Of a stretch of DNA of 22,639 bases, positions 3,055-17,134 are shown one piece after another. The DNA lies in IMG/VR virus record IMGVR_UViG_3300030107_001335, positions 1 through 22,639 of that record; one strand, 5' to 3'. The position numbers and the translations under genes were made by a program. The DNA is from a virus. Numbering within the stretch: position 1 is the stretch's first letter; each line of letters begins with the position of its first letter. The notes beneath the pieces are model-generated. The model saw only the letters and a program-made list of their open reading frames with translations, was not told the origin of the DNA and did no database searches.

Positions 3055-5837
3055 CCAAGGTTATTCAGGCCAATTTTGCGGGGGGTGAGGTATCAGATGC
3101 CGTTGCCGCTCGTGTGGATATTGACAAGTATAAGACGTCCGTCGCTAAGGCGGAAAATGTGTTTGTGCAAGTCCACGGCGGCCTGAGCAGTCGGACTGGT
3201 CTACAGTTTATTGCCGAGGCTAAGACGCCAGCAAATACAGTCAGGCTAATCCCTTTTGAGTTTAATACAACGCAAACGTACATACTGGAGTTTGGTCACC
3301 AGTACATGCGGGTCTATAAAGACGGGGGGCAGGTGTTATCAACTTCTGTTACAGATAGTGTCAATGGCATCACCGTCGCCAGCCCAGCGGTCCTGACTTG
3401 TACGGGGCATCCATTTTCTGACGGGGATGACGTCTACATAAGCGGCATTGTTGGGATGACTCAGCTTAACCAGAGGACGTTTCGCGTATCCAACAAAACA
3501 ACAAACACCTTTCAGCTTACTGACTTTGATGGCACGGCAATCAGTAGCGCTGGTTACACTGCGTACTCCTCTGGCGGTACTGTATCTAAGGTCTATGAAA
3601 TTGCTACTCCTTACGCCGCCGCTGATCTGTTTAATATAAAATATGTGCAGACAGCAGATGTGATGACGCTCACACATCCAACATACGAACAACGTAACCT
3701 TACTCGCACCGACCATGACGCTTGGACGCTGTCAGTTATTGAGTTTCAACCTGAACAGGCGTTTCCAACAGGGATAGGCGTAACCGTCAATAGCACGGGT
3801 AGCGAGACTGATCGCTATGTGGTCACGGCTGTCAACAGGGATACGGCGGAGGAAAGTCTTCGCGGGTTAAACAGCACCGCAAAGAATATTACGGCAATTA
3901 CCAAAGCTAATCCGGGTGTGGTAACGAGTAGCTCACATGGCTTTTCAAATGGGGATGAGGTCTACATTCAATCTGTTGGGGGTATGGTTGAGGTTAATAA
4001 CGAGGTCTACAAGGCTGCAGGTGTGACGACAAACACATTTAATTTGACCGACACGACTGGAGCTAACGTTAACACGACCAACTTTACAACGTACACTTCT
4101 GGCGGCACAGCTAATCAGATGTTTGTCAAGGTTACGAACTCTGCCTCTACACGAGATAATACTATCGCTTGGACAGCAGCAGCGGACGCAGAGAGCTATA
4201 ATGTATACCGTGAAAAGAACGGATTGTTTGGCTTCATAGGGCGTACTGAAAACGTCACGTTTGATGATAGTAATGTTGACCCTGATGTTGCCGATACTCC
4301 TCCGAGAACCCGCAACCCCTTCACAGGTACAGATAGCTACCCTAGCACTGTGGGCTACTATCAACAGCGTAAGTTGTTTGGCAATTCCAATACCTATACC
4401 CAGCGTATGTGGATGACGCAGACAGGTCACTTTTCAAACCTGTCCGTCTCCAGCCCCGCCCGTGACGACGACGCTATAACGGTGACCCTGTCTTCTAGGC
4501 AGGTGAATGAGATCAGGCATTTTGTCAGTTTATCTGATCTTATTATCCTGACGTCTGGGGGCGAGTGGGTTGTTACGGGGGTAGATGATGTTATCACGCC
4601 TTCAGGTATTCAGGTGAAGCCACAGTCTTACTTTGGCGCTACTGAGGTTCAGCCGATTGTCGCTGGAGACATTGTCCTCTTCGTACAACCGGGTCAAACT
4701 GTTCGCGACCTTGGCTACGAATTTTCTACGGATAGCTATAAAGGTAACGACGTCTCTGTCCTGTCTCGTCACCTTCTAGATTATAACACGATTATTGACT
4801 GGAGCTTTGCTCAGGCTCCCCACAACTTGATCTGGGCAACACGGGATGATGGCGTCATGCTCTGCCTAACCTACTCAAGAGAGCAGCAGGTATTCGGCTG
4901 GAGCCGCCATGTCACTCAAGGGGATTTTAAAAGCGTGGCGTCTGTCCGAGAGGGAGATGACGACTTCAGCTACTTTGTGGTTGAAAGAAAAATTGGCACT
5001 CGCACAACCCAGTACGTTGAGCGGATGGCCTCCCGTGATTTTACGGACGTGCAGGATGCGTTCTTTGTAGACAGCGGACTGACGTATGACAGCCCCGTTG
5101 CAATTACAGGATTTACAAACGCCAACCCGATTGTTGTAACCGCTGGAAGTCATGGTTTTGAAAATGGAGACAGTGTAGATATAACAGGCATCAAGGTTGC
5201 GGATAGCGACGAGACACGAGGCTGGTCTTACGATACGGAAATTGAAGGCACGGGTTACACCGTTGTCAACAAGACGACTAATACCTTTGAGCTTCAGAAC
5301 AACAGCGCCAACGTCAACGGATCGTCTTTCAAAGTTTACCACTCTGGGGGGCAGGTTCGTAAGCAGGTGTCAGAGATTAGCGGGTTGTGGCATCTGGAGG
5401 GAGAGAGCGTTGTTGCCCTCGCCAACGGATACGTCGTCAAAGGCTTGACTGTAGCCAGCGGCAAGGTCACTCTTACTGATGCGTCTAGTCGCATCCACAT
5501 AGGGCTTCCCTACACGGCAGAAGTAGAAAGCCTGCGCCTAGACAACGGGAACGTCCTTGACACCATTCAGGGGCGAAATAAGAAGATCAGCAGGCTGACG
5601 CTCAGGTTTGAGAGGACACTAGGCGGATGGGTAGGGCCAGATCGCGATCACATGCGCGAAATGAAGTATGGGCTTGTTGCCTTATACGGGCAGCCGCCTG
5701 CTTTTATTACAGACGACAAGCACATTACTTTAAGCCCAAGCTGGAACAAGGATGGTCAGATTGTTGTCCAGCAACGCGATCCTCTGCCACTGACTTTGCT
5801 GGCGCTTGTCCCTGACGTTGTAGCGGGAGGGAACTGA
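3051..5837 (+). CDS. Tail nozzle protein (tail tubular protein B / T7 gp12-like) with three FCCH-like domains
   Basis: At 928 aa this is longer than T7 gp12 (about 790 aa). The N-terminus (IQANFAGGEVSDAVAARVDI, then ENVFVQVHGGLSSRTGLQFI) is the standard start of this family, which forms the tube-shaped tail tip. Extra domains explain the length. FCCH-like beta modules lie at about residues 107-181, 279-359 and 683-773; each has the plan H-G/P-F-x-x-G-D-x-V-x-I, then T-N-T-F-x-L, then S-G-G. An Fn3-like stretch (residues 363-410, WTAAADAESYNVYREKNG) follows the second copy. The C-terminal third returns to nozzle-type sequence. Translation starts at ATG 3051, coupled to the adaptor gene by ATGA. 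Such surface modules may bind the host surface or reinforce the tail; that role is inferred. Confidence 0.85.
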   Translation: MTKVIQANFAGGEVSDAVAARVDIDKYKTSVAKAENVFVQVHGGLSSRTGLQFIAEAKTPANTVRLIPFEFNTTQTYILEFGHQYMRVYKDGGQVLSTSVTDSVNGITVASPAVLTCTGHPFSDGDDVYISGIVGMTQLNQRTFRVSNKTTNTFQLTDFDGTAISSAGYTAYSSGGTVSKVYEIATPYAAADLFNIKYVQTADVMTLTHPTYEQRNLTRTDHDAWTLSVIEFQPEQAFPTGIGVTVNSTGSETDRYVVTAVNRDTAEESLRGLNSTAKNITAITKANPGVVTSSSHGFSNGDEVYIQSVGGMVEVNNEVYKAAGVTTNTFNLTDTTGANVNTTNFTTYTSGGTANQMFVKVTNSASTRDNTIAWTAAADAESYNVYREKNGLFGFIGRTENVTFDDSNVDPDVADTPPRTRNPFTGTDSYPSTVGYYQQRKLFGNSNTYTQRMWMTQTGHFSNLSVSSPARDDDAITVTLSSRQVNEIRHFVSLSDLIILTSGGEWVVTGVDDVITPSGIQVKPQSYFGATEVQPIVAGDIVLFVQPGQTVRDLGYEFSTDSYKGNDVSVLSRHLLDYNTIIDWSFAQAPHNLIWATRDDGVMLCLTYSREQQVFGWSRHVTQGDFKSVASVREGDDDFSYFVVERKIGTRTTQYVERMASRDFTDVQDAFFVDSGLTYDSPVAITGFTNANPIVVTAGSHGFENGDSVDITGIKVADSDETRGWSYDTEIEGTGYTVVNKTTNTFELQNNSANVNGSSFKVYHSGGQVRKQVSEISGLWHLEGESVVALANGYVVKGLTVASGKVTLTDASSRIHIGLPYTAEVESLRLDNGNVLDTIQGRNKKISRLTLRFERTLGGWVGPDRDHMREMKYGLVALYGQPPAFITDDKHITLSPSWNKDGQIVVQQRDPLPLTLLALVPDVVAGGN

Positions 5838-6301
5838 TGATTAGAGATTTAACCGTAGAGGATGTCCCCGCCATCATAGCGCTGGGGATGACTATGGCAG
5901 AAGAGACAGGCCACCTTTTGCATGTTGAGAGATCGAACTTTATTCTTCGGGAGATTATTCCGTCCGCTAACGTCTTTGCTCAGGGCAGAGTAGAAGATGG
6001 ACGCTGCTCCGCTATGTTTATTGGAGAGGTAGCTGAGCATCCTTTAATCAACTTAGTGTTCGCTCAAGAGATATGCATTTACACGCATCCTGACTGTAGA
6101 GGCGGTACAACTGCTGCTCGCCTAATCAAGAACTTTACCTCTTGGGCGCGAGAAAAAAACGTAGACTATATCAAGGTAGAAGTTACGGCTGGCGTAGATG
6201 ATGAACGAGCTACCCGGCTGTTTGAAAAATTTGGGTATGACCGTGTTGGGTTTCTCGCGGTACAAGGTGTGAGGAGAGAAGCATGGCAGCAGCAACTATA
6301 A
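5837..6301 (+). CDS. GNAT-family N-acetyltransferase
   Basis: This 154-aa protein has the plan of the Gcn5-related acetyltransferases. The acetyl-CoA phosphate-binding loop is visible as CRGGTTAARL (residues 87-96, with R88, G89, G90 and A93) after the beta strand ICIYTHP, and motif B appears as RLFEKFGYDRVG (127-138). The reaction would be transfer of an acetyl group from acetyl-CoA to an unknown amine on a small molecule or protein. The ATG overlaps the nozzle stop by one base (TGATG), with a GGGAGG element just upstream. Small GNAT genes are often found here, between nozzle and internal virion genes of podoviruses, and their substrate is generally unknown. It may act on a host or virion protein; that is inference. 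Confidence 0.82.
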   Translation: MIRDLTVEDVPAIIALGMTMAEETGHLLHVERSNFILREIIPSANVFAQGRVEDGRCSAMFIGEVAEHPLINLVFAQEICIYTHPDCRGGTTAARLIKNFTSWAREKNVDYIKVEVTAGVDDERATRLFEKFGYDRVGFLAVQGVRREAWQQQL

Positions 6302-6804: not shown

Positions 6805-8687
6805 TGGCACGCATACCGACAGTAGCAGCACCGGGGCAAGCCGTAGGCACAGTCAAGACAGGCTTCACCCCTCAACCTTTCCAACGGTTGTCTACCAACG
6901 CCGATATGTTTGGCGCTGCAGAAGGGAAGAGGATGCAAGAAGTCTCTGCCGCGCTAGATGCGTTCGCTTCTGACTTAAAGGATATGCAGCTCCAAGACGA
7001 CGAAAATTTGCTTACGGAAATTAAGGGGCAACTTAAAAGAAAGTCTGCAGATATTTTACAAAATCCTACTACGGGGATTCTCAATAAATTGCAAAAGAAC
7101 GCTATAGGTGTTTCTTCCGATGCGCTGGCTGCCTTCGATGAGGAAGTAAGCTCTCTAAAGAAACTCCCCCAAACTGCAGCAGGAAAAGACAGTTATAAGA
7201 AACTTTTGCTTTCTCTTAGAGGAGGCTTAACCGAAAAAGCCTACGCCCATGAGCGCACGCAGAATTTGGCGTATAAGAAAACGTTATTCACTACGGAAAT
7301 AGGAACCTCTCAGCAAGACATGGGGCTGTACTTTAATTCTGATAAGGATTTAAAAGACAATGAGAGTTCAATTCGTACCGCAAGCATAAAGCACGCTAAC
7401 CTTGAGGGGATTGACCCCAAAGAGCTTGTAAAGAAGAACATCAGCTCAGGGTATTTACAGGCTATCCAATCGGCTGTCGTTGCTCAGGACTATACTCGCG
7501 CAGCTTCTATTTTGAAGACGCATGAAAGTAAGCTGGGGTCCGAAGATTTGAAAACTGCTAGGGTAGCGGTGCAGGACGCTACTGTACTTGGGGAGGCCCA
7601 GTCAGCGGCAAAAACTATTTTACAAGATACATCTCTTGCAACAGATCAAGCCCGTATGGATGCCACCAGAAAGATTAAAGACCCTAAGATACAGGAGAAG
7701 GCACGGGCTATAGTTAAGGAAGAGATCAGTGTAAGAAACACATTGAAGGATAGAGAGATTTCGGAGCGGTTTGATAGGGTAGCGAACCTCGCTTTAACTA
7801 ACCAACCCATAACTCCTGCAGACCGCGCAGGTTTTAGCGCCCGTCAAAACGCCTATATAGACGCTCGGATGACAGAAGGTAAATTAAGAGCGGTGGACCC
7901 CGACTACCAAAGACCGGGAGACGGCGGGGTCACTTACGGTAAATATCTAGACGACACCCGCAACCCCTCTTACCTCACTACCTTGTCACTGCAGCAGTTA
8001 AAAGAGAAGTATGAGAACGGGGTTACGAAGGCTGAGTTCGATGTCATTCTAGGCGAATGGAGAACCGCTTCACAAAATGCAAATAAGCTCACGGCTACGG
8101 ACGCTAGAAAGCTCAGAGATGAAAAAAGGAAGTTAGTTCTTTCGTCTGAACAACCGCATTTGAAAGCGGTTGCCCTTGCTGCGGGAATCGACGCTAATGA
8201 TAAAGATGACAGGGAGCGGTATGCCGCATGGCTTATTGAGTTCAATAGAAGAGTTGAGGCGGAGGGAGCCTCCACTCCTCTAGAGCGCAAAGCAATTATA
8301 GACAGCATGGGCCGCGATAAGGTTGTTTACGACACAGATTTCCGAGATGAGAGCGCACCCTCGTTTGAGATGACGGATGACAACAAGGAAGAGCTAGCTG
8401 GTGAACTGGATATAAACAAGGCTGCTAGACCTGTGTTTGTTTCTTCCTTCTCGGCTCTTGCCTCCAGTATCCGCGCTCAACGGGGCGCACCCTCACGGGA
8501 CACCATCAATAAAGAGTGGAAGCGGTTCTTGGATGTTAGCACTAATCTGAGTTTGCCTGCCGCTGACGTCCCCCTCCTTATTACTAACTGGAGTACGATG
8601 ACCGCTGTTCTTCTTAAAAACAACGCTCAGTTAACTTCGCAGAACTACGTTACTCTCTGGAATAACAATGTGCAGAGGAACCCTTGA
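6804..8687 (+). CDS. Internal virion protein, helical, T7 gp15-like position
   Basis: The preferred start is ATG 6804, which overlaps the previous stop by one base (TAATG); this gives 627 aa. A GTG at 6792 in the same frame is possible but less likely. After an N-terminal Pro/Ala leader (MARIPTVAAPGQAVG) the protein is almost wholly alpha-helical and charged. Units resembling helical repeats occur (DYTRAASILKTHESKLGSED; ARMDATRKIKDPKIQEKARA), a style common in the second ejection protein of podoviruses. No transglycosylase, protease or nucleotide-binding motif was seen. In T7 the gp15 counterpart forms part of the trans-envelope ejection tunnel; the same role is inferred here from position between a gp14-like and a giant gp16-position gene. 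Confidence 0.72.
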   Translation: MARIPTVAAPGQAVGTVKTGFTPQPFQRLSTNADMFGAAEGKRMQEVSAALDAFASDLKDMQLQDDENLLTEIKGQLKRKSADILQNPTTGILNKLQKNAIGVSSDALAAFDEEVSSLKKLPQTAAGKDSYKKLLLSLRGGLTEKAYAHERTQNLAYKKTLFTTEIGTSQQDMGLYFNSDKDLKDNESSIRTASIKHANLEGIDPKELVKKNISSGYLQAIQSAVVAQDYTRAASILKTHESKLGSEDLKTARVAVQDATVLGEAQSAAKTILQDTSLATDQARMDATRKIKDPKIQEKARAIVKEEISVRNTLKDREISERFDRVANLALTNQPITPADRAGFSARQNAYIDARMTEGKLRAVDPDYQRPGDGGVTYGKYLDDTRNPSYLTTLSLQQLKEKYENGVTKAEFDVILGEWRTASQNANKLTATDARKLRDEKRKLVLSSEQPHLKAVALAAGIDANDKDDRERYAAWLIEFNRRVEAEGASTPLERKAIIDSMGRDKVVYDTDFRDESAPSFEMTDDNKEELAGELDINKAARPVFVSSFSALASSIRAQRGAPSRDTINKEWKRFLDVSTNLSLPAADVPLLITNWSTMTAVLLKNNAQLTSQNYVTLWNNNVQRNP

Positions 8688-11600
8688 TGGCAGATTTTAC
8701 TAATGTCACGGGTTTAACGTCTGCCCTTCAGGAAGATCAAGAGCCGAATGATGCGCTTCTTCCTGCAGACCCTGTCCCTGCAGTTGGCGCTCCCCCTACT
8801 TTTAATAATGTTGTTGACCTTGTCCCTGATACCCTGCGCCAGAAGGCACAGCTTCAAGACGCTGTTCGCGTTCCTGCCACTCAGTTTAAGCAGCAGCAAG
8901 ACTTAGCTGCAGCAACTGGGGTTCCCGTATCTGTTGCCGCCTCTGACGATGGCACGCTGGCTAGAAAAGCGAAAAGCGACAAGATTGCAAAGACGGTTGA
9001 GAACAGCCCTGTCACTAAGGCGTGGTTTACGGACCCCCGCAAGGCTCGACTGGCACAAGACGATGCGGAGGTGATGACAAGATTAGAAGCAAATTCTAGG
9101 AAGGCATACGGCGCTACTCTTGATATTGGCATAGCCTTTAACAGGTGGATTGACAGGGTTACAATAGCGCCAATTGCAGCGCTTGATTATTTAGACGCAG
9201 GCGCTCGTAAGATACTCGGATTAGACCCAAAAGAGTACGAGAGGGTAGGGCTTGCTACCGCGATTACGGACTTGGCTGACGCTGTAGGGAAAGTGATCGG
9301 GTATAGAGACGAAACTACAAAAAGAACAGCGGATTTAAGACCCGGCGAAGGGATGGGACTTGCAGGCGCTGGGGTAGGATCGGAAGCTGCCGAGATTATT
9401 ATAACGCCTGACGAGCTGTTTAACTCTCCTTTTAAAAATGTATTACCCTTTATAGCGCAAGAGTTCATGTCTAGCGTTCCTCACATGGCCTTGGCTATAG
9501 CCTCCCTTCCCGCTTACGCTTTGACCCAAGCGGAGAGTATTGGGCAGCAACGGGCTACGGCTAACAATAAAAAAGAAGCTACCCTCATGGACGTCTTGAA
9601 GGCTATGCCGTTTGCGGTGGCTTCCGCCTTTCTGGAGAGGTTGGGCGCTCGTGGCATGTTGGGCATTGATGATGCGCTTAAAGAGCTATCGAAAAAGGGG
9701 GTGGCATCTGCTACAGGAAAGGCAGGCGCTAAAGAGATGTTTACTGAGTTTGGTCAGGGGTTTCTGGAAAACACAGGCGCAACTCTAGGTACGGATAAAG
9801 GGTTTGAATTAAAAGAGGCTTTTAAGGAGGCTACGGCAGGAGCAATAGCAGGGGCAGGAATAGGCTCCAGCATTAGAGGGGTAACCGCTACTGCAGAGCT
9901 AACCTTAAAATCAAGACAGGCTAAAAGGCGAACCGAAGCGGTTAGGGAGTTAAACTCGACAGACAGTAACCTCAGAGAGGTTTCCCCACAGGCGTGGGCA
10001 GAGTTTCAGGGTTCTCTTATGGAGGAGGCTGGGGTTGAAGAGGTACAGGTTTCCTCGGAAGGTGTCGATATTTTGTTGCAAGCCGTCGAGGATATGCCTG
10101 ACGAGCAACGGTCTAGGCTAAACTTAAAGTCTACTATCACAGAGAGCATTGTTACTGGAGCAACCTCCTCCATTACTCCAGAGCAATTTTGGAGCCTCCC
10201 TCAAGAAACTATAGACCGTCTGGCCCCGCACATTTCGTTAACAGCTAACGAGTATAGCTCTGCCGAGGCAGAAGAGCTGGCAACGCTCACGCAAGAAGCA
10301 ACCCGGTCAGGGTTTGTGGATGAGGTGCAGAGACGGACTGCAGAATTTGACGCAACTAACGAGCTTACAGTTGAGATTTCTGAACGCCTGATTGAGGAAG
10401 GAGGCGTTCTCTCTGGTGACCCTGCCGCTGTTCAGGCTGCCAGCCAACAAATGGCTTCTGCCTTTACTGTTCTGGCAGAACGAAGCGGACTTCCTCTTGA
10501 GACAATTAAAGAGCGTTTCCTTCCTCGCATAGAACAGACCTTTGACCCCATGCCGCAAGAAACGGCTAGGGTTTTAGAGCAGCTTACTCCTGAAGCAGAA
10601 GCCAATCTGCGTGAGCGGCTGGGAATGAAGTTTAAAGATGTAATTCGTCGCGTCGATAAACTGGTAGATGGCATTAAAGATTTCCAAGCTGGCAAAATTA
10701 CTCGCGAGGAGTGGAACCGAATTGTTGACACTTACAAGCCTGTTGCTCCTTTTGATGAAGTGGTGGCCCCTGAAACTAATGCCAAAATGTCAGAGGCGCT
10801 TGATGTTAATCAAAGAGAAAAGTTAAACGCTAAAGTTGCCACAGGAACGTATGTCGGATTGCGATTGGATATCCCTGCTTACACCCGCCTTGGCGTCTGG
10901 ATAGCCTCTATTCACGAGGCGAAGCGTACAGGAAGCTCCTTTCAAGCGGGGACACCACTGTCCTACCGTTCCACTGCAGCGCTGCGTGCGCCCAAAGGAG
11001 GGAAGATTACTTTTGGGGTAGTCGAACCGGGGGCCGAAAAATTTGCAACTCAGCAGGTAAGCAGTAAAGGCACAAAGTTTCCTAAGAACACATTTGCAAC
11101 TATTAGAGGGGAGCTTGTTAACCGTTCCGAGGCGGAGAACACACGTCTTGCTGAAGAGGCGCTGAACGACCCTGCAGTGCTACAGGACGACGGTACTTAC
11201 AAAGGCTGGGTGCAGGTTGGTATGGACCCAGAGCGGCACTCTTACTTTTACGACAGGGCAGACGCTAACCGTCCTATTCTAGAAGCGGAAGAAGTTATTC
11301 AGATAGGTCCGCAGGTTCTGGCTAAGAACCCTGTCTACGGAAACCAAGCAGACTTCCTTTTTCAAACTAGTTTAGACCCTACTATTGCAGGGGGGCTTCC
11401 TCCCGACATTGCCAGCAACTCTTCTGGCGCTAATAAAATTACAACTGCTGACCTAGAAGGCGCTGCGTTAATCCCTATCTTTGCAGACCTCACCGACGCT
11501 GGCAGAACCTTTGACGCACTAGATGGGGTTCCTGTCCAACCTACGCAGTTATTTGGGGGACCAAATTTTCCGCTGCTTAAAGAGTATGCCGATAATGAGA

Positions 11601-14600
11601 TCGTATGGTCGTTCAATGCCAAGGGCGTGATAACCGGGTTAAAGAATAAAATAGAGGAGCTTAAAAAGCAGGGTAATGAGCGGGTGGTTGTTACCGTTCT
11701 AGCTATGAAGGACGATGCACACACATCTAACAGCATGGTGACTAATGCCTTGCTACGAACCTTCACCGCTATGGTGGAGGCTGGCAGGCTTCCTAAAGAG
11801 AACCTTACGGAGGCAACTAAATTTTTTAAGAGCAAGGCTGATAAGAAAGAAGAGGGGTACGCAGAGTTAGCCAACTTCCCCGGATTTAATAACGTCACTA
11901 AGCTAATTGATTGGGTAGACAACACAACTTTTACTACCCGTAAGGCGTTATCCAAAGAGATGCAGTCAGCTAAATTTAAGGAGCTGATTGGAGACGCCAC
12001 AATGCACCGTGTTATTAGAGAGCTTGTGGACCCCAACTACAGGGCAACCCAACAGGGGGATGCGTTACTTGCTTTTGAGATTGACCCCACAAGAGAAGAC
12101 CTCATCGTAGATTACGATAGCGCTGAGGCTAAAGAGAAAGGGATACCCAGACACCCCGCTTACCGTTTTGGTATGAGAGGGAAAATGGTTGGTCAGTTTA
12201 AAACGCATATTCCTATGCGAGTTCTGTACAAGGACTTGATGGAGAATGTCACTGAGCGATCCCGCCAAGAGGTAGAACGGAAGAGACGCGAGGGGCAGCC
12301 AAACGCAAAATATGCCAACCCTAAGTTTCTTATGGAGCGCCTACGCAAAACAGATACTCAGGTTGTCACTCCTGAGATTGTTGCTGAAGCGCAGTTAATT
12401 GAAAACTTACACGATTACAGAGTTGCCCAAGCGTACACTTCTGCGTTGGCTGGAGAATGGAAAGACAGCCATACAAACGCGAATAAGGGCGGGGTGAACC
12501 CTGCCGAATATGTTCTTGCCCTTCAAGAGAACCAAGCATCTTCTACTTTGACCCCTTATACTTTAGAGGACATTGCAAAGGGAAGAGAGGACGGCAGCTT
12601 TAAGGTTTTTCAACTTGGCACAACTAACGTCGCCAGCGGGGGACTAAGCACATGGATGGCAACAAAGGAGGGGTATAATTACGCAGAAGAATACCCCGGA
12701 GAGGTAACCCAAAGTTTATTAGACGCAGGCGTTATAACAGCAAACGAGAAGGCTCTTGTAGGCGTTGCGAATAATGAGCTTGGCGTTAACGGGATGGGGA
12801 CTTTTCAGGTACTGAAGGCTATTGAAGAAGGGGTGACTGTACTAGACGCCTTTAAGGTCATTAGTTCTGAAAAACCTCTTGGACTTTTACCGACTATATA
12901 TGCTACAATGGGCTTTGAAGAGGTCGGGGTTATTCCCTTTGATCCTAAGTACGCTGACGGTAAGGATGGAAATCCATATTTAGCGGACTTGGAAGCGGTG
13001 TGGGAGGGCCAAGGCTGGAAGAAGGGCGATCCGTATCCCGGTATCGCTATTATGAAGTATAGGGGGTCAGATGACAGAACAAACGCCAGTACAAACTTTA
13101 TTAAGCAGGGCCAACAAGGTCTTGGGTTCAGAGGCGATCCAGTCGCTACAGAGGTCGACACCGAGACGAGCAATATGGTCGTCGGGCCTGAGCCAACTGA
13201 TCAAGCAGGCGGGGTCACCAGAGAAGGTGACGGACGAGCAACTCCTGCAAGCGCACAAGATCGCGCACGAAGCGTTTCCAGAGCAGGCCGAGATTTTATC
13301 CAAGGCGTCCTAGCTGCAGATGATCTTGCCCTTTCTGCTTTAAAGATACCAAAAGAGCGGGTTGATAAAATCCGCTCTTCTTTCCCTGTTGAGGAAGCCT
13401 CCTTTGAGCAGAGAACTAAAGACACTGCTCGCGGCTCTATTGATTTTAGAAACATGGAAGACATTGTTATCCGACTTTATAAGTCGGAGAACCTGTCTAC
13501 GTTCTTGCATGAGAGCGGACACCTTTACTTAGAAATGATGGGGGCGCTGTCCGAAGCGCCAGACAGCAGCGCCCAGCTCAAGGCTGATTACCAAACCGTT
13601 CTAGATTGGCTGGGTGTTCCAAATCGTCAGGCTATAACAAGAGAGCATCACGAAAAGTGGGCGGAGACTTACGAGGAGTATTTAAGAGAAGGCAAAGCCC
13701 CCTCCTCTGAACTGCGTAGCGCCTTTGCTAAATTTACTGCGTGGCTGACTACGCTGTACCGTGCCATCCGCTCTCGCGGTAGGCTGCCTAGAGCTGCTCT
13801 TAATAAAGATATAAGCGGGGTCATGGATCGTCTACTGGCTACTGACGAGCAGATAGCGCTGGTCAGAGCGGAGCAAAGAATTGCCCCTATGTTTCAGGAC
13901 GCCGAAGCTGGAGGAATGACAGAGGAGCAGTACGAGGCTTACATTGAAGAGTATGAGGGTGCGAGAGCTTCCGCTCATGCCGAGCTTGTTCAAGCCACAC
14001 TAGCCGAGACTAAAAGAGAAAAGACTAAGTGGTGGAGAGACGCCCTTGCGAAAGAGACGGCTTCTGCTTTGCGAGTTCTTGACCAAGACCCTGCTTGGAG
14101 GGCTAGAGCTGTGCTGCAAGGAGATGTTCTTCCTTCAGGTGCTGCTCTTCCAGAGGTGTACCCGCAAGGGCTAAAGTTGGATCGCAGCCTGACTAAGCCG
14201 TATGGCTATACATTGCCGGGAGGCAACAAGCTGTTTGCAAGAGGAGGCGTGTCTCCAGATCGCGCTGCTCAGGACTTAGGGTTCCGTTCAGGAGACGAGC
14301 TGCTCCATATGCTGTCTCTTCTTCCTAAAGACGAAAACGGAAAGTTCCTCACCGCAAAGCAATTTGCTGCTCGCCAAGCAAAGGCTACTCTCAAGGAAGA
14401 GTACGGGGACATGACTGACGCTGCCACCTTGCATGAGGAGGCTCTAGCTAAAGTCCATTCTATGCGGCAAGCTAATTTAATTTTAAAAGAGCTAAAGGCG
14501 CTTCATAAGTTAGGAAACACTCCTAGCAAGGCTACCCAGAAGATTATGCGGATGGCAGCCGAAAACGCTGTACTTGATAAAGCCGTTCATCAAATAGAAG

Positions 14601-17134
14601 CCCCCTCCAAGTTCTTAAACGCAGAGCGCAGGCTTTCTTTAAAAGCCAGCGAAGCTGTAGCCGCTGGTAAGCTAGACGAGGCGATACGGTATAAGACACA
14701 ACAGCTTCTTAACTTTCATATGTACAGGGTTGCTACGGAGGCCAGAGAAAAGGCAACTAAGCTCATTGGGAATTTAAAACAATACCAGAAGAAAAAATTT
14801 GATCCTAAGACGACGCACCCTGAATTTATTAAGCAAGCCGTAGACCTTTTGTCGGATGTAGACTTACGCAACCGAATGGGGCCAAAAAGAGAAGCACGCT
14901 TAACCAACGAGGCAGTGGAAGCGTGGGCAGCTTCTCAGACAGAAAAGTACGGCGCGAGCTTTCACATTCATCCCGCCCTAGAAGCCGCCTTGACTAAGAC
15001 TAACGCTAGGGACATGACGCTAGGTGAGCTGGAAGGTTTGCATGACACTGTAAAGAGTATTCTGACGCAAGGGCGGCGATACTCAAAAGCGCAAGGTGTT
15101 CAATTTGAAAATCGGGCAAGCAACCTTGCGGACAGCATACAGCGCAATGCTAAGAAAAAGTTACGCACCCCGCTTGAAAGAAGCTGGTGGGACGGGGCGA
15201 AGTCGTTTGCAAAGATGGCGTTTGCGGAACACAGGCACGTCCTTAGTTTGTCAGAAGAGCTTGATGGGTATGAAACAGGAGGACTGTTTTATACTGAGAT
15301 TTATCAGCGCATAAAAAGAGCTGACGATGCGTACATAGACAGAAGTATGCAGGCCGCTGAAGCCTTAAATGAAATTTTTAATAAGTACGATTTAGGGGAA
15401 AAGGCCCGGTTTTATAACAGAACGTATATTCCTGAAATAGACGCAAGCCTGTCTCTGAATGGACGGCTGGCGTTTGCTCTTAACATGGGCAACGCTGGTA
15501 ACGTCGCTGTTATGAAAGAACGCTATACAGATGAACAGATAGACGCCGTTCTGGATACCCTAACAGATAAGGACTGGGATGTTGTTGAAGCGGTCTGGGC
15601 GCAGATTGATACTTACTGGGCAGACACCGTAGACGCCCAAGGCAATGTTGTTGCTGAGGGTTTATCTACAGTGGAGCAACGAACTACAGGAATAAAGCCA
15701 GCGAAGGTAGAAGCTACTCCGTTTGTCTTACCGTCTGGGCGTGTAATTACTGGAGGCTATTATCCTCTAGTTGCGGACCCCGCTCAAAACCAAAAGAGTA
15801 GGGAAGACTACCTAGCCAGTAATAGCTTAAAATCTTTTTCTTCTGGGGGGCGTGCAAAGACGAATACTAAACACGGCAGCACTATAGAAAGGCGAGGCTT
15901 TGGGGACAGAGCGGTGTGGCTGGATTTGCGGGTTGCTTTTGAGCATGTAGATGGTGTCGTCAGAGACATCCACATGCGGGAAGCTGTCGCTGACACTTTA
16001 CGCTTTCTAAACAATTCAGATGTAGAGACAGAAATAAACGCCGCAAAAGGCGAAGTACATTCTATGTTAATCAAGTGGATTGAGAACACCGTAGAAGCAA
16101 GCCGCCCTCCCATCACTACAGTAGAAAAGCTGGCAACCTACGCTCGGACGGGGGCGTCTATAGCGGAAATGGGTTTGAGCCTTAGAACAATGCTGATGCA
16201 GCCCTTTGGGTTTTCTCAGTCTATAGCGATATTAGGAGAGAAATACTCTACGGCAGGATTAGCCGAGTTTGCTTTAGGTCAGGGGGATGCAGCTAGGAAG
16301 GTTATGGAAGCGAGTAGCTTTATGCGTAACCGTTCCCGCACATTTAACCGAGAAGTTAAAGAAGTGGGACGCTGGATGGGGGCTAAGGGGCTTCAGAACA
16401 AAGTGGTTACAGCCAGCTTCTGGGGTATTCAAAAATTAGACATGGCAGTGTCCATTCCTACATGGTTAGGAGCGTACAAGAAGGCAGTAGAGAAAGAGGG
16501 AATGGGGCATCTGGACGCCGTTGATTTTGCAGACCAAACGGTAATGCGAACTCAGGGTACGGGGCTTCCTAGAGATATGTCAGACATTCAGCAGGGTGCT
16601 GTATGGAAAAAAATGTTTACAATGTTCTACAGCTTCTTTGCTGCTTATCATAATATGCAAGTTGACCAGTGGAAGCAGACGGATTTTAAGAACCCCGCCC
16701 AAGCGTTACGTTATGCAAAGAACCAGTTATGGTTAACCATCATTCCTTCTCTTGTTGTAGAGGCTTTATTTAATGGGCTGCCAGACGACGAAGACGAGTG
16801 GCCTTTGTGGGGAATGGGGGTTCTGGCTAGATATTTGACAGGCGGGGTAGTCATACTAAGAGACGCCGTCAACGCCGCTGTTACAGGTTTTGACTACACT
16901 GCTACTCCCGCTGGTAACCCTTTAAAGGAGGCCGCCAACTTAGCTAAACAATTAGAGCAGGGGGAAAACGATGTGGCGTTGTGGAGGTCTTTGGTTATGT
17001 TTACAGGCTACATGGGGCATGTACCGGGAGCTAGGACACTTAACAGAGGCATCTCCGTCGCTACAGACGATTTTGAGGTAGACGAATTTGAAAGCTGGTG
17101 GCGTCTCCTAGTGATGGGCAAGAAGAGGGACTAG
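8687..17134 (+). CDS. Giant internal virion / large polyvalent protein with zincin HESGH site
   Basis: The start is ATG 8687, sharing one base with the previous stop (TGATG); a TTG at 8684 is less likely. The product has 2815 aa and occupies the place of T7 gp16. Regions in order: acidic Pro-rich leader (1-60); hydrophobic stretch VLPFIAQEFMSSVPHMALAI (252-271) and small-residue segment GAIAGAGIG (385-393); a conserved phage segment with HSYFYDR (from H851); a GNAT-like segment ending YATMGFEEVGVIPFDP (near 1400-1420); low-complexity linker (about 1462-1543); zincin metallopeptidase site HESGH (1608-1612) with E1663 as likely third zinc ligand; long coiled coils; and a C-terminal region with hydrophobic LWLTIIPSLVVEALF (from 2681). 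This matches the large polyvalent proteins of phages, thought to be injected with DNA. No lytic transglycosylase motif was found. Functions are inferred. Confidence 0.8.
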   Translation: MADFTNVTGLTSALQEDQEPNDALLPADPVPAVGAPPTFNNVVDLVPDTLRQKAQLQDAVRVPATQFKQQQDLAAATGVPVSVAASDDGTLARKAKSDKIAKTVENSPVTKAWFTDPRKARLAQDDAEVMTRLEANSRKAYGATLDIGIAFNRWIDRVTIAPIAALDYLDAGARKILGLDPKEYERVGLATAITDLADAVGKVIGYRDETTKRTADLRPGEGMGLAGAGVGSEAAEIIITPDELFNSPFKNVLPFIAQEFMSSVPHMALAIASLPAYALTQAESIGQQRATANNKKEATLMDVLKAMPFAVASAFLERLGARGMLGIDDALKELSKKGVASATGKAGAKEMFTEFGQGFLENTGATLGTDKGFELKEAFKEATAGAIAGAGIGSSIRGVTATAELTLKSRQAKRRTEAVRELNSTDSNLREVSPQAWAEFQGSLMEEAGVEEVQVSSEGVDILLQAVEDMPDEQRSRLNLKSTITESIVTGATSSITPEQFWSLPQETIDRLAPHISLTANEYSSAEAEELATLTQEATRSGFVDEVQRRTAEFDATNELTVEISERLIEEGGVLSGDPAAVQAASQQMASAFTVLAERSGLPLETIKERFLPRIEQTFDPMPQETARVLEQLTPEAEANLRERLGMKFKDVIRRVDKLVDGIKDFQAGKITREEWNRIVDTYKPVAPFDEVVAPETNAKMSEALDVNQREKLNAKVATGTYVGLRLDIPAYTRLGVWIASIHEAKRTGSSFQAGTPLSYRSTAALRAPKGGKITFGVVEPGAEKFATQQVSSKGTKFPKNTFATIRGELVNRSEAENTRLAEEALNDPAVLQDDGTYKGWVQVGMDPERHSYFYDRADANRPILEAEEVIQIGPQVLAKNPVYGNQADFLFQTSLDPTIAGGLPPDIASNSSGANKITTADLEGAALIPIFADLTDAGRTFDALDGVPVQPTQLFGGPNFPLLKEYADNEIVWSFNAKGVITGLKNKIEELKKQGNERVVVTVLAMKDDAHTSNSMVTNALLRTFTAMVEAGRLPKENLTEATKFFKSKADKKEEGYAELANFPGFNNVTKLIDWVDNTTFTTRKALSKEMQSAKFKELIGDATMHRVIRELVDPNYRATQQGDALLAFEIDPTREDLIVDYDSAEAKEKGIPRHPAYRFGMRGKMVGQFKTHIPMRVLYKDLMENVTERSRQEVERKRREGQPNAKYANPKFLMERLRKTDTQVVTPEIVAEAQLIENLHDYRVAQAYTSALAGEWKDSHTNANKGGVNPAEYVLALQENQASSTLTPYTLEDIAKGREDGSFKVFQLGTTNVASGGLSTWMATKEGYNYAEEYPGEVTQSLLDAGVITANEKALVGVANNELGVNGMGTFQVLKAIEEGVTVLDAFKVISSEKPLGLLPTIYATMGFEEVGVIPFDPKYADGKDGNPYLADLEAVWEGQGWKKGDPYPGIAIMKYRGSDDRTNASTNFIKQGQQGLGFRGDPVATEVDTETSNMVVGPEPTDQAGGVTREGDGRATPASAQDRARSVSRAGRDFIQGVLAADDLALSALKIPKERVDKIRSSFPVEEASFEQRTKDTARGSIDFRNMEDIVIRLYKSENLSTFLHESGHLYLEMMGALSEAPDSSAQLKADYQTVLDWLGVPNRQAITREHHEKWAETYEEYLREGKAPSSELRSAFAKFTAWLTTLYRAIRSRGRLPRAALNKDISGVMDRLLATDEQIALVRAEQRIAPMFQDAEAGGMTEEQYEAYIEEYEGARASAHAELVQATLAETKREKTKWWRDALAKETASALRVLDQDPAWRARAVLQGDVLPSGAALPEVYPQGLKLDRSLTKPYGYTLPGGNKLFARGGVSPDRAAQDLGFRSGDELLHMLSLLPKDENGKFLTAKQFAARQAKATLKEEYGDMTDAATLHEEALAKVHSMRQANLILKELKALHKLGNTPSKATQKIMRMAAENAVLDKAVHQIEAPSKFLNAERRLSLKASEAVAAGKLDEAIRYKTQQLLNFHMYRVATEAREKATKLIGNLKQYQKKKFDPKTTHPEFIKQAVDLLSDVDLRNRMGPKREARLTNEAVEAWAASQTEKYGASFHIHPALEAALTKTNARDMTLGELEGLHDTVKSILTQGRRYSKAQGVQFENRASNLADSIQRNAKKKLRTPLERSWWDGAKSFAKMAFAEHRHVLSLSEELDGYETGGLFYTEIYQRIKRADDAYIDRSMQAAEALNEIFNKYDLGEKARFYNRTYIPEIDASLSLNGRLAFALNMGNAGNVAVMKERYTDEQIDAVLDTLTDKDWDVVEAVWAQIDTYWADTVDAQGNVVAEGLSTVEQRTTGIKPAKVEATPFVLPSGRVITGGYYPLVADPAQNQKSREDYLASNSLKSFSSGGRAKTNTKHGSTIERRGFGDRAVWLDLRVAFEHVDGVVRDIHMREAVADTLRFLNNSDVETEINAAKGEVHSMLIKWIENTVEASRPPITTVEKLATYARTGASIAEMGLSLRTMLMQPFGFSQSIAILGEKYSTAGLAEFALGQGDAARKVMEASSFMRNRSRTFNREVKEVGRWMGAKGLQNKVVTASFWGIQKLDMAVSIPTWLGAYKKAVEKEGMGHLDAVDFADQTVMRTQGTGLPRDMSDIQQGAVWKKMFTMFYSFFAAYHNMQVDQWKQTDFKNPAQALRYAKNQLWLTIIPSLVVEALFNGLPDDEDEWPLWGMGVLARYLTGGVVILRDAVNAAVTGFDYTATPAGNPLKEAANLAKQLEQGENDVALWRSLVMFTGYMGHVPGARTLNRGISVATDDFEVDEFESWWRLLVMGKKRD
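13071..13313 (+). CDS. Possible overprinted 80-aa gene inside the giant gene
   Basis: In a different + frame from the giant gene, an ORF begins at ATG 13071 with AGGGGG (13061-13066) four bases upstream, and ends at TAG 13313. Its product reads like a real soluble helical protein: it starts MTEQTPVQTLLSRANKVLG and ends with VTDEQLLQAHKIAHEAFP and QAEILSKAS. Over the same bases the giant frame gives a Gly/Arg/Asp/Thr/Ser-rich stretch (such as QAGGVTREGDGRATPASAQD) with no clear fold. I do not recognise a family. It may be an expressed overlapping gene, the remnant of a small gene once located between two separate genes, or chance. Other out-of-frame ORFs in the window do not look this protein-like, which is the main argument for listing it. 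Confidence 0.4.
   Translation: MTEQTPVQTLLSRANKVLGSEAIQSLQRSTPRRAIWSSGLSQLIKQAGSPEKVTDEQLLQAHKIAHEAFPEQAEILSKAS

Follow-up and report, generated by a model that had tools for sequence, protein, structure and literature searches.

The window, the whole 22.6-kb stretch of DNA analysed here, is a virus record whose structural genes are those of a short-tailed-type phage and encode a head protein, proteins of the tail, and one internal virion protein. It also encodes a giant polyvalent protein, and entirely within that gene (8684-17134) lies an ORF in a different frame, at 13071-13313 (+), which is in the +1 frame of the giant ORF and encodes 80 aa (MTEQTPVQTLLSRANKVLGSEAIQSLQRSTPRRAIWSSGLSQLIKQAGSPEKVTDEQLLQAHKIAHEAFPEQAEILSKAS). 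An earlier note on this DNA had claimed an 80-aa out-of-frame ORF, a ribosome-binding AGGGGG four bases before its ATG, and a low-complexity giant frame across it, and each of these is present as described. The features of the locus are as follows:

8684-17134, + strand: giant host gene, 2,816 aa, polyvalent and ejection-type, with LPD22, a variable middle cargo, a zincin, and a phrog_9880-like C-terminus
12407-13066, + strand: GNAT-fold domain of the giant (alignment, AF2 model, Foldseek), directly upstream of the nested gene
13053-13055, + strand: +1-frame TGA, located 15 nt ahead of the nested ATG, inside conserved Met-Lys codons (ATGAAR)
13061-13066, + strand: AGGGGG, Shine-Dalgarno (SD)-like site of the nested gene, within Arg-Gly codons ending the GNAT-like domain
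13070-13400, + strand: low-complexity interdomain linker of the giant (frame 0), overlapping the nested gene, with codon usage in the overlap that is atypical for the giant
13071-13313, + strand: probable nested gene, 80 codons plus TAG, read in the +1 frame of the giant ORF, with a product predicted to form five helices
13508-13522, + strand: HESGH motif of the giant's zincin, lying downstream of the nested gene and conserved in relatives

The giant belongs with the phage polyvalent proteins that carry GNAT, ART, and metallopeptidase domains (PMC5512222), as indicated by its LPD22 domain (near the N-terminus, E 1e-11), its zincin, and its GNAT-fold cargo; relatives carry LPD38 and, like the proteins of that study, ART-PolyVal and Acb1 domains. 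The name of ejection gene used in the earlier note fits, and polyvalent protein is more precise given the LPD22 domain. A term search of PMC5512222 turned up no description of an out-of-frame gene (the word "overlapping" occurs 0 times). The C-terminal 1,240 aa of the giant correspond to phrog_9880, and counterparts of this part occur in Bordetella phage BPP-1, in Cobetia phage Carin1, and in ~60 other phage records. Relatives L001-L008 have only the conserved giant ends in common with the window, their middle cargo being unrelated, and the giant is one uninterrupted ORF in L001, L003, L004, L006, L007, and L010. The low-complexity linker is not odd in itself, because several relatives have a similar one ahead of the zincin (L001, L006). 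The segment upstream of the nested ORF matched no Pfam family and is predicted to have a GNAT fold: its AF2 model (pLDDT 75) had phosphinothricin acetyltransferase as best PDB match in Foldseek (E 5.6e-4, prob 0.99), the other top matches were mostly GNATs at TM-scores of only ~0.4, and toxins of the TacT, AtaT, and GmvT type were among the weaker matches.

By itself, the length of the nested ORF is unremarkable, as a maximal +1 ATG ORF of at least 80 aa arises in a gene this long with P = 0.25 under synonymous shuffling and with P = 0.34 under codon permutation, neither of which is significant. Codon usage in the window counts against the nested ORF, with the giant frame scoring above the +1 frame, and the 80-aa protein itself, used as a query against IMG/VR, INPHARED, Pfam, and PHROGs, returned no match. 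The predicted pairing of AGGGGG with the 16S anti-SD is -10.0 kcal/mol, a value matched by only ~1% of 378 other + strand ATGs and comparable to those of the genes of the window that have an SD (-7 to -11 kcal/mol).

Our comparison set, made up entirely of uncultivated contigs, consisted of the window and four lineages with the GNAT module (L010/L011, L014, L018, and L023), of which L010 and L011 are near-identical over their shared 16.5 kb and form one lineage; these relatives were found through adjoining giant modules or a two-member ORF alignment. All four of the other lineages (4/4) have a homologue of the nested ORF, in the same +1 frame and the same place and of 79-90 aa:

L010, 9634-9873: nested homologue, 80 aa, 50% identity over 64 aa, E 2.5e-16
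L014, 1991-2251: nested homologue, 86 aa
L018, 8560-8832: nested homologue, 90 aa
L023, 9565-9804: nested homologue, 79 aa, 27% identity, E 6e-5

The earlier note had named homologues of the product, stops in its frame among relatives, and synonymous-site conservation as checks on its proposal; besides the homologues in all four lineages, the 80-aa frame has no stop in any of them (0/4). Identity among the nested proteins of the five lineages is 27-55%, with the deepest homologue, that of L023, only 27% identical, and protein-level similarity spans the entire ORF. Frames 0 and +1 are the only ones open in 5/5 lineages, the +2 frame having 4-7 stops. Among the + strand alternative frames, the nested frame alone has tblastn matches below 1e-5 (three relatives, 1e-14 to 1e-16). 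None of six records without the GNAT module, which may be incomplete, has the nested gene, and a match in L015 (WOR-3 MAG) was rejected, since it consists of a "SPEKVTDE" peptide that occurs by chance in an ORF of unrelated origin. In L023, the GNAT-bearing polyvalent ORF (6882-10004; 1,040 aa) stops ~200 nt past the nested gene and lacks the zincin fusion, and the next gene has an ART-like start.

The anatomy of the start is conserved as well. An ATG of its own and an SD-like site are found in 5/5 lineages, the latter placed in the same codons at the end of the GNAT-like domain (L010 -9.8, L014 -6.3, L018 -5.8, and L023 -6.0 kcal/mol), and in each lineage a +1-frame TGA shuts the upstream +1 reading with the nested ATG following exactly 15 nt later. 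Such an arrangement might instead serve a programmed +1 frameshift after the GNAT domain, which would produce a truncated giant ending in the helical domain and no separate protein; the +1 frame opens only 15 nt before the ATG, just past the GNAT domain, and Arg codons AGG/AGA, which are rare in three of the giants, occur there in four lineages. We consider frameshifting improbable, however, as no slippery sequence is conserved, the codon found there in L023 is one for Ser, and the in-frame ATG with SD-like spacing that is kept in 5/5 lineages would be superfluous.

Codon-position conservation was compared in six pairs drawn from the window, L010, L014, and L018, pairs which are not independent of one another. 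In all six, 0.55-0.68 of giant third positions were identical in the overlap, compared to 0.31-0.42 upstream and 0.08-0.33 downstream, and conserved giant residues used the same synonymous codon in 68-79% of cases in the overlap versus 33-44% upstream (per-pair Fisher p between 6e-6 and 1e-3). Conservation in the overlap is three-periodic, and giant position 1, which serves the +1 frame as its wobble position, is generally conserved least. When the window was scanned against L010 (1,809 aligned codons, windows of 60 codons), third-position identity had a mean of 0.29 (sd 0.09) and a peak of 0.67 at 13097-13274, remaining at or below 0.42 elsewhere, and position 3 exceeded position 1 only in the overlap among these 1,809 codons. 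An antisense frame in register with the giant would be expected to give the same positional pattern; it was rejected on account of stops in L010, L018, and L023.

Simulations in which one frame was held fixed gave a similar picture, those of similarity being run on gapped alignments (a one-codon indel is present). With the giant residues fixed and synonymous codons redrawn, the observed +1 similarity was reached in 0/2,000 trials, the exception being 0.1% in the harshest setting for L014. With the +1 residues fixed, the giant frame stayed open in 1-11% of trials, and it is open in 5/5 lineages; giant-frame similarity, too, was higher than simulated, if less markedly (in the harshest setting, P was as high as 0.03). 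Each frame exceeds the simulations that fix the other, and both frames are therefore used, with purifying selection evident in both. Of the checks named above, the synonymous-site comparison reveals abnormally conserved giant third positions in the overlap.

It could be argued that the nested ORF is a chance open frame whose similarity in relatives is a shadow of the conserved giant frame, given that ORFs this long are expected by chance in so long a gene and that alternative frames, mainly antisense ones, do yield shadow tblastn matches. A shadow, however, cannot lift giant position 3 above position 1, a pattern confined to the overlap; simulations that fix the giant fail to reproduce the +1 similarity; no other + strand alternative frame has matches below 1e-5; and in L023 the small protein is detectable and the linker is without detectable similarity. 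This makes a shadow highly improbable. The chances are slighter still for a proposal of the earlier note, namely a fossil gene that once stood between two genes and is now dead, while the giant frame merely happens to run open across it: the giant linker does resemble an out-of-frame reading, with atypical codon usage, but a dead gene would not keep a frame of 79-90 aa, a start, an SD-like site, and similarity in five lineages. Moreover, the giant frame is open in all five lineages though few simulations (the same 1-11%) keep it so, the giant is one ORF in other relatives, and the same 1,200 aa at the C-terminus are found in known phages. The alternative reading in that note, a true overprinted gene, is supported by the homologues and codon-position conservation in the four other lineages, both of which go well past anything chance would give. 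Equally remote is an RNA or DNA element (a regulatory structure, or a packaging or recombination site) conserved as bases and not as protein, which alone can cause synonymous conservation but fits poorly with the lack of an Rfam match at a meaningful score, ordinary folding (z -1.1 to +1.2 in five sequences, for a 101-nt stretch around the start only), three-periodic conservation with the +1 wobble position most variable, and protein similarity along the whole ORF.

We thus conclude with high confidence, at a probability of about 0.88, that a genuine protein-coding gene, conserved across the lineages, occupies 13071-13313, where it is nested in the +1 frame within the giant's interdomain linker; this judgement comes from sequence comparison and is an evolutionary statement that excludes function. 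Ribosomes would start at the nested ATG by way of the SD-like site in the last codons of the GNAT domain, an anatomy whose conservation is observed, and this internal initiation would yield a predicted 80-aa all-helical protein. In its AF2 prediction the product has five helices (pLDDT 81.5, pTM 0.64), and fold searches with it gave no match. No match to it was obtained in Pfam, PHROGs, NCBIfam, PDB, or INPHARED; the family is absent from the annotated collections searched, and because it has no homologue there, the product has no functional anchor.

To assess which frame is older, we scored codon usage with training on each lineage's own giant, a criterion for the age of overlapping frames that has been reviewed previously (PMC8227390). 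In 4/5 lineages, giant-frame codon usage in the overlap ranks no higher than the 5th percentile for its own gene, as befits the remark in the earlier note that this frame reads like an out-of-frame translation; in L018 it is at the 12th percentile. Ranked among +1 windows, the +1 frame reaches percentiles 89-100, and its score is above that of the giant frame in L010, L014, and L023; in the window and L018 the giant frame still scores higher. In addition, a profile of the other four lineages finds the L023 small protein at E 1.9e-5, whereas the L023 giant linker is not found (E 4.7). Because of this codon usage and the L023 profile result, the nested gene is probably the older frame and the giant linker the overprint, at least in L010, L014, and L023. 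Loss of an upstream stop codon is an established way in which overlapping genes arise (PMC2268670), and is also discussed as one possible route to embedded spanin pairs (PMC6139136). As our preferred origin, the nested gene probably began as an ordinary gene behind a GNAT gene that lost its stop. The giant frame over these 240 bases would then mainly have to stay open, and the linker would presumably serve as a hydrophilic, flexible spacer that separates the GNAT-fold domain from the zincin.

In overprinting, the nested frame is usually the novelty, and the known examples of nested genes in tailed phages come mainly from lysis (Rz1). The gene described here is an embedded phage gene in an unusual place. 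Like the embedded Rz/Rz1 spanin genes of lambda and T7 (PMC6139136), it is a small gene inside another, in the +1 frame and with its own start, and is inherited together with its host as a unit; unlike Rz1, whose host is a lysis gene, it sits in an ejection-type giant. An o-spanin identity was rejected, since the product has by inspection no signal peptide, lipobox, transmembrane segment, or secretion signal, and it has no cysteine and no hydrophobic N-terminus. In the overprinted genes of phiX174, too, one stretch encodes two proteins, as demonstrated by codon usage and conservation (PMC8227390), whereas here the genome is that of a dsDNA tailed phage and not of a small virus, it is the nested frame that seems older and folded, with the outer one resembling a low-complexity overprint, a claim that is testable. 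Embedded spanin genes have been missed by gene callers (PMC6139136); if the nested gene is translated, an entire protein family has likewise been missed, and the disordered linkers of modular phage giants would be a place to seek hidden genes. The gene recurs across five diverged lineages and occupies a variable cargo region in which relatives carry ADP-ribosyltransferase and anti-CBASS Acb1 domains.

The unit common to all five lineages is the GNAT-fold domain together with the nested gene. L014 shares only giant residues 1242-1567 (window numbering), which correspond to the GNAT module and nested gene, and its flanks are unrelated; L018 has an ART domain upstream of the module. Because the nested gene is constantly paired with the GNAT domain, our best guess for the small protein, a tentative one, is that it might act on this domain, as a partner for folding, packaging, or holding, and would thereby keep the effector inactive in the virion-building cell; this guess draws on co-occurrence only, and nesting beside the domain would give the same pairing. 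More doubtful is a further step, in which the GNAT effector of a virion-delivered giant would carry its own partner or immunity gene nested in the 3' linker; were that so, effector and partner would be physically inseparable, and one cassette would move between giants that differ on both sides. The GNAT toxin-antitoxin pairs TacT/TacA, AtaT/AtaR, and GmvT/GmvA similarly have a small protein encoded beside a GNAT domain, whereas in the present case the GNAT belongs to a giant protein of structural type, and the small gene is downstream and nested, with a product predicted to be all-helical. Its product matched no known antitoxin family in Pfam and no antitoxin fold.

Several other observations were made on these contigs. 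In L014, an anti-CBASS Acb1 domain (2353-2766, giant residues 785-922; E 3e-22) follows directly after the GNAT module. Third-position identity between the window and L001 is also raised in the giant frame at 15254-15431 (0.55; mean 0.33, sd 0.07), where position 3 does not exceed position 1. Two long antisense ORFs of the window, 11362-12036 (-) and 12805-13173 (-), have tblastn matches in relatives down to E 1e-33. They probably just shadow the conserved codons of the giant, and they show that tblastn by itself should be used with care when hidden genes are sought. Lastly, a stand-alone acetyltransferase gene (5837-6301, +; phrog_1249, E 2e-20) lies between a tail gene and the internal virion protein gene, and the phage therefore has a second GNAT outside the giant.
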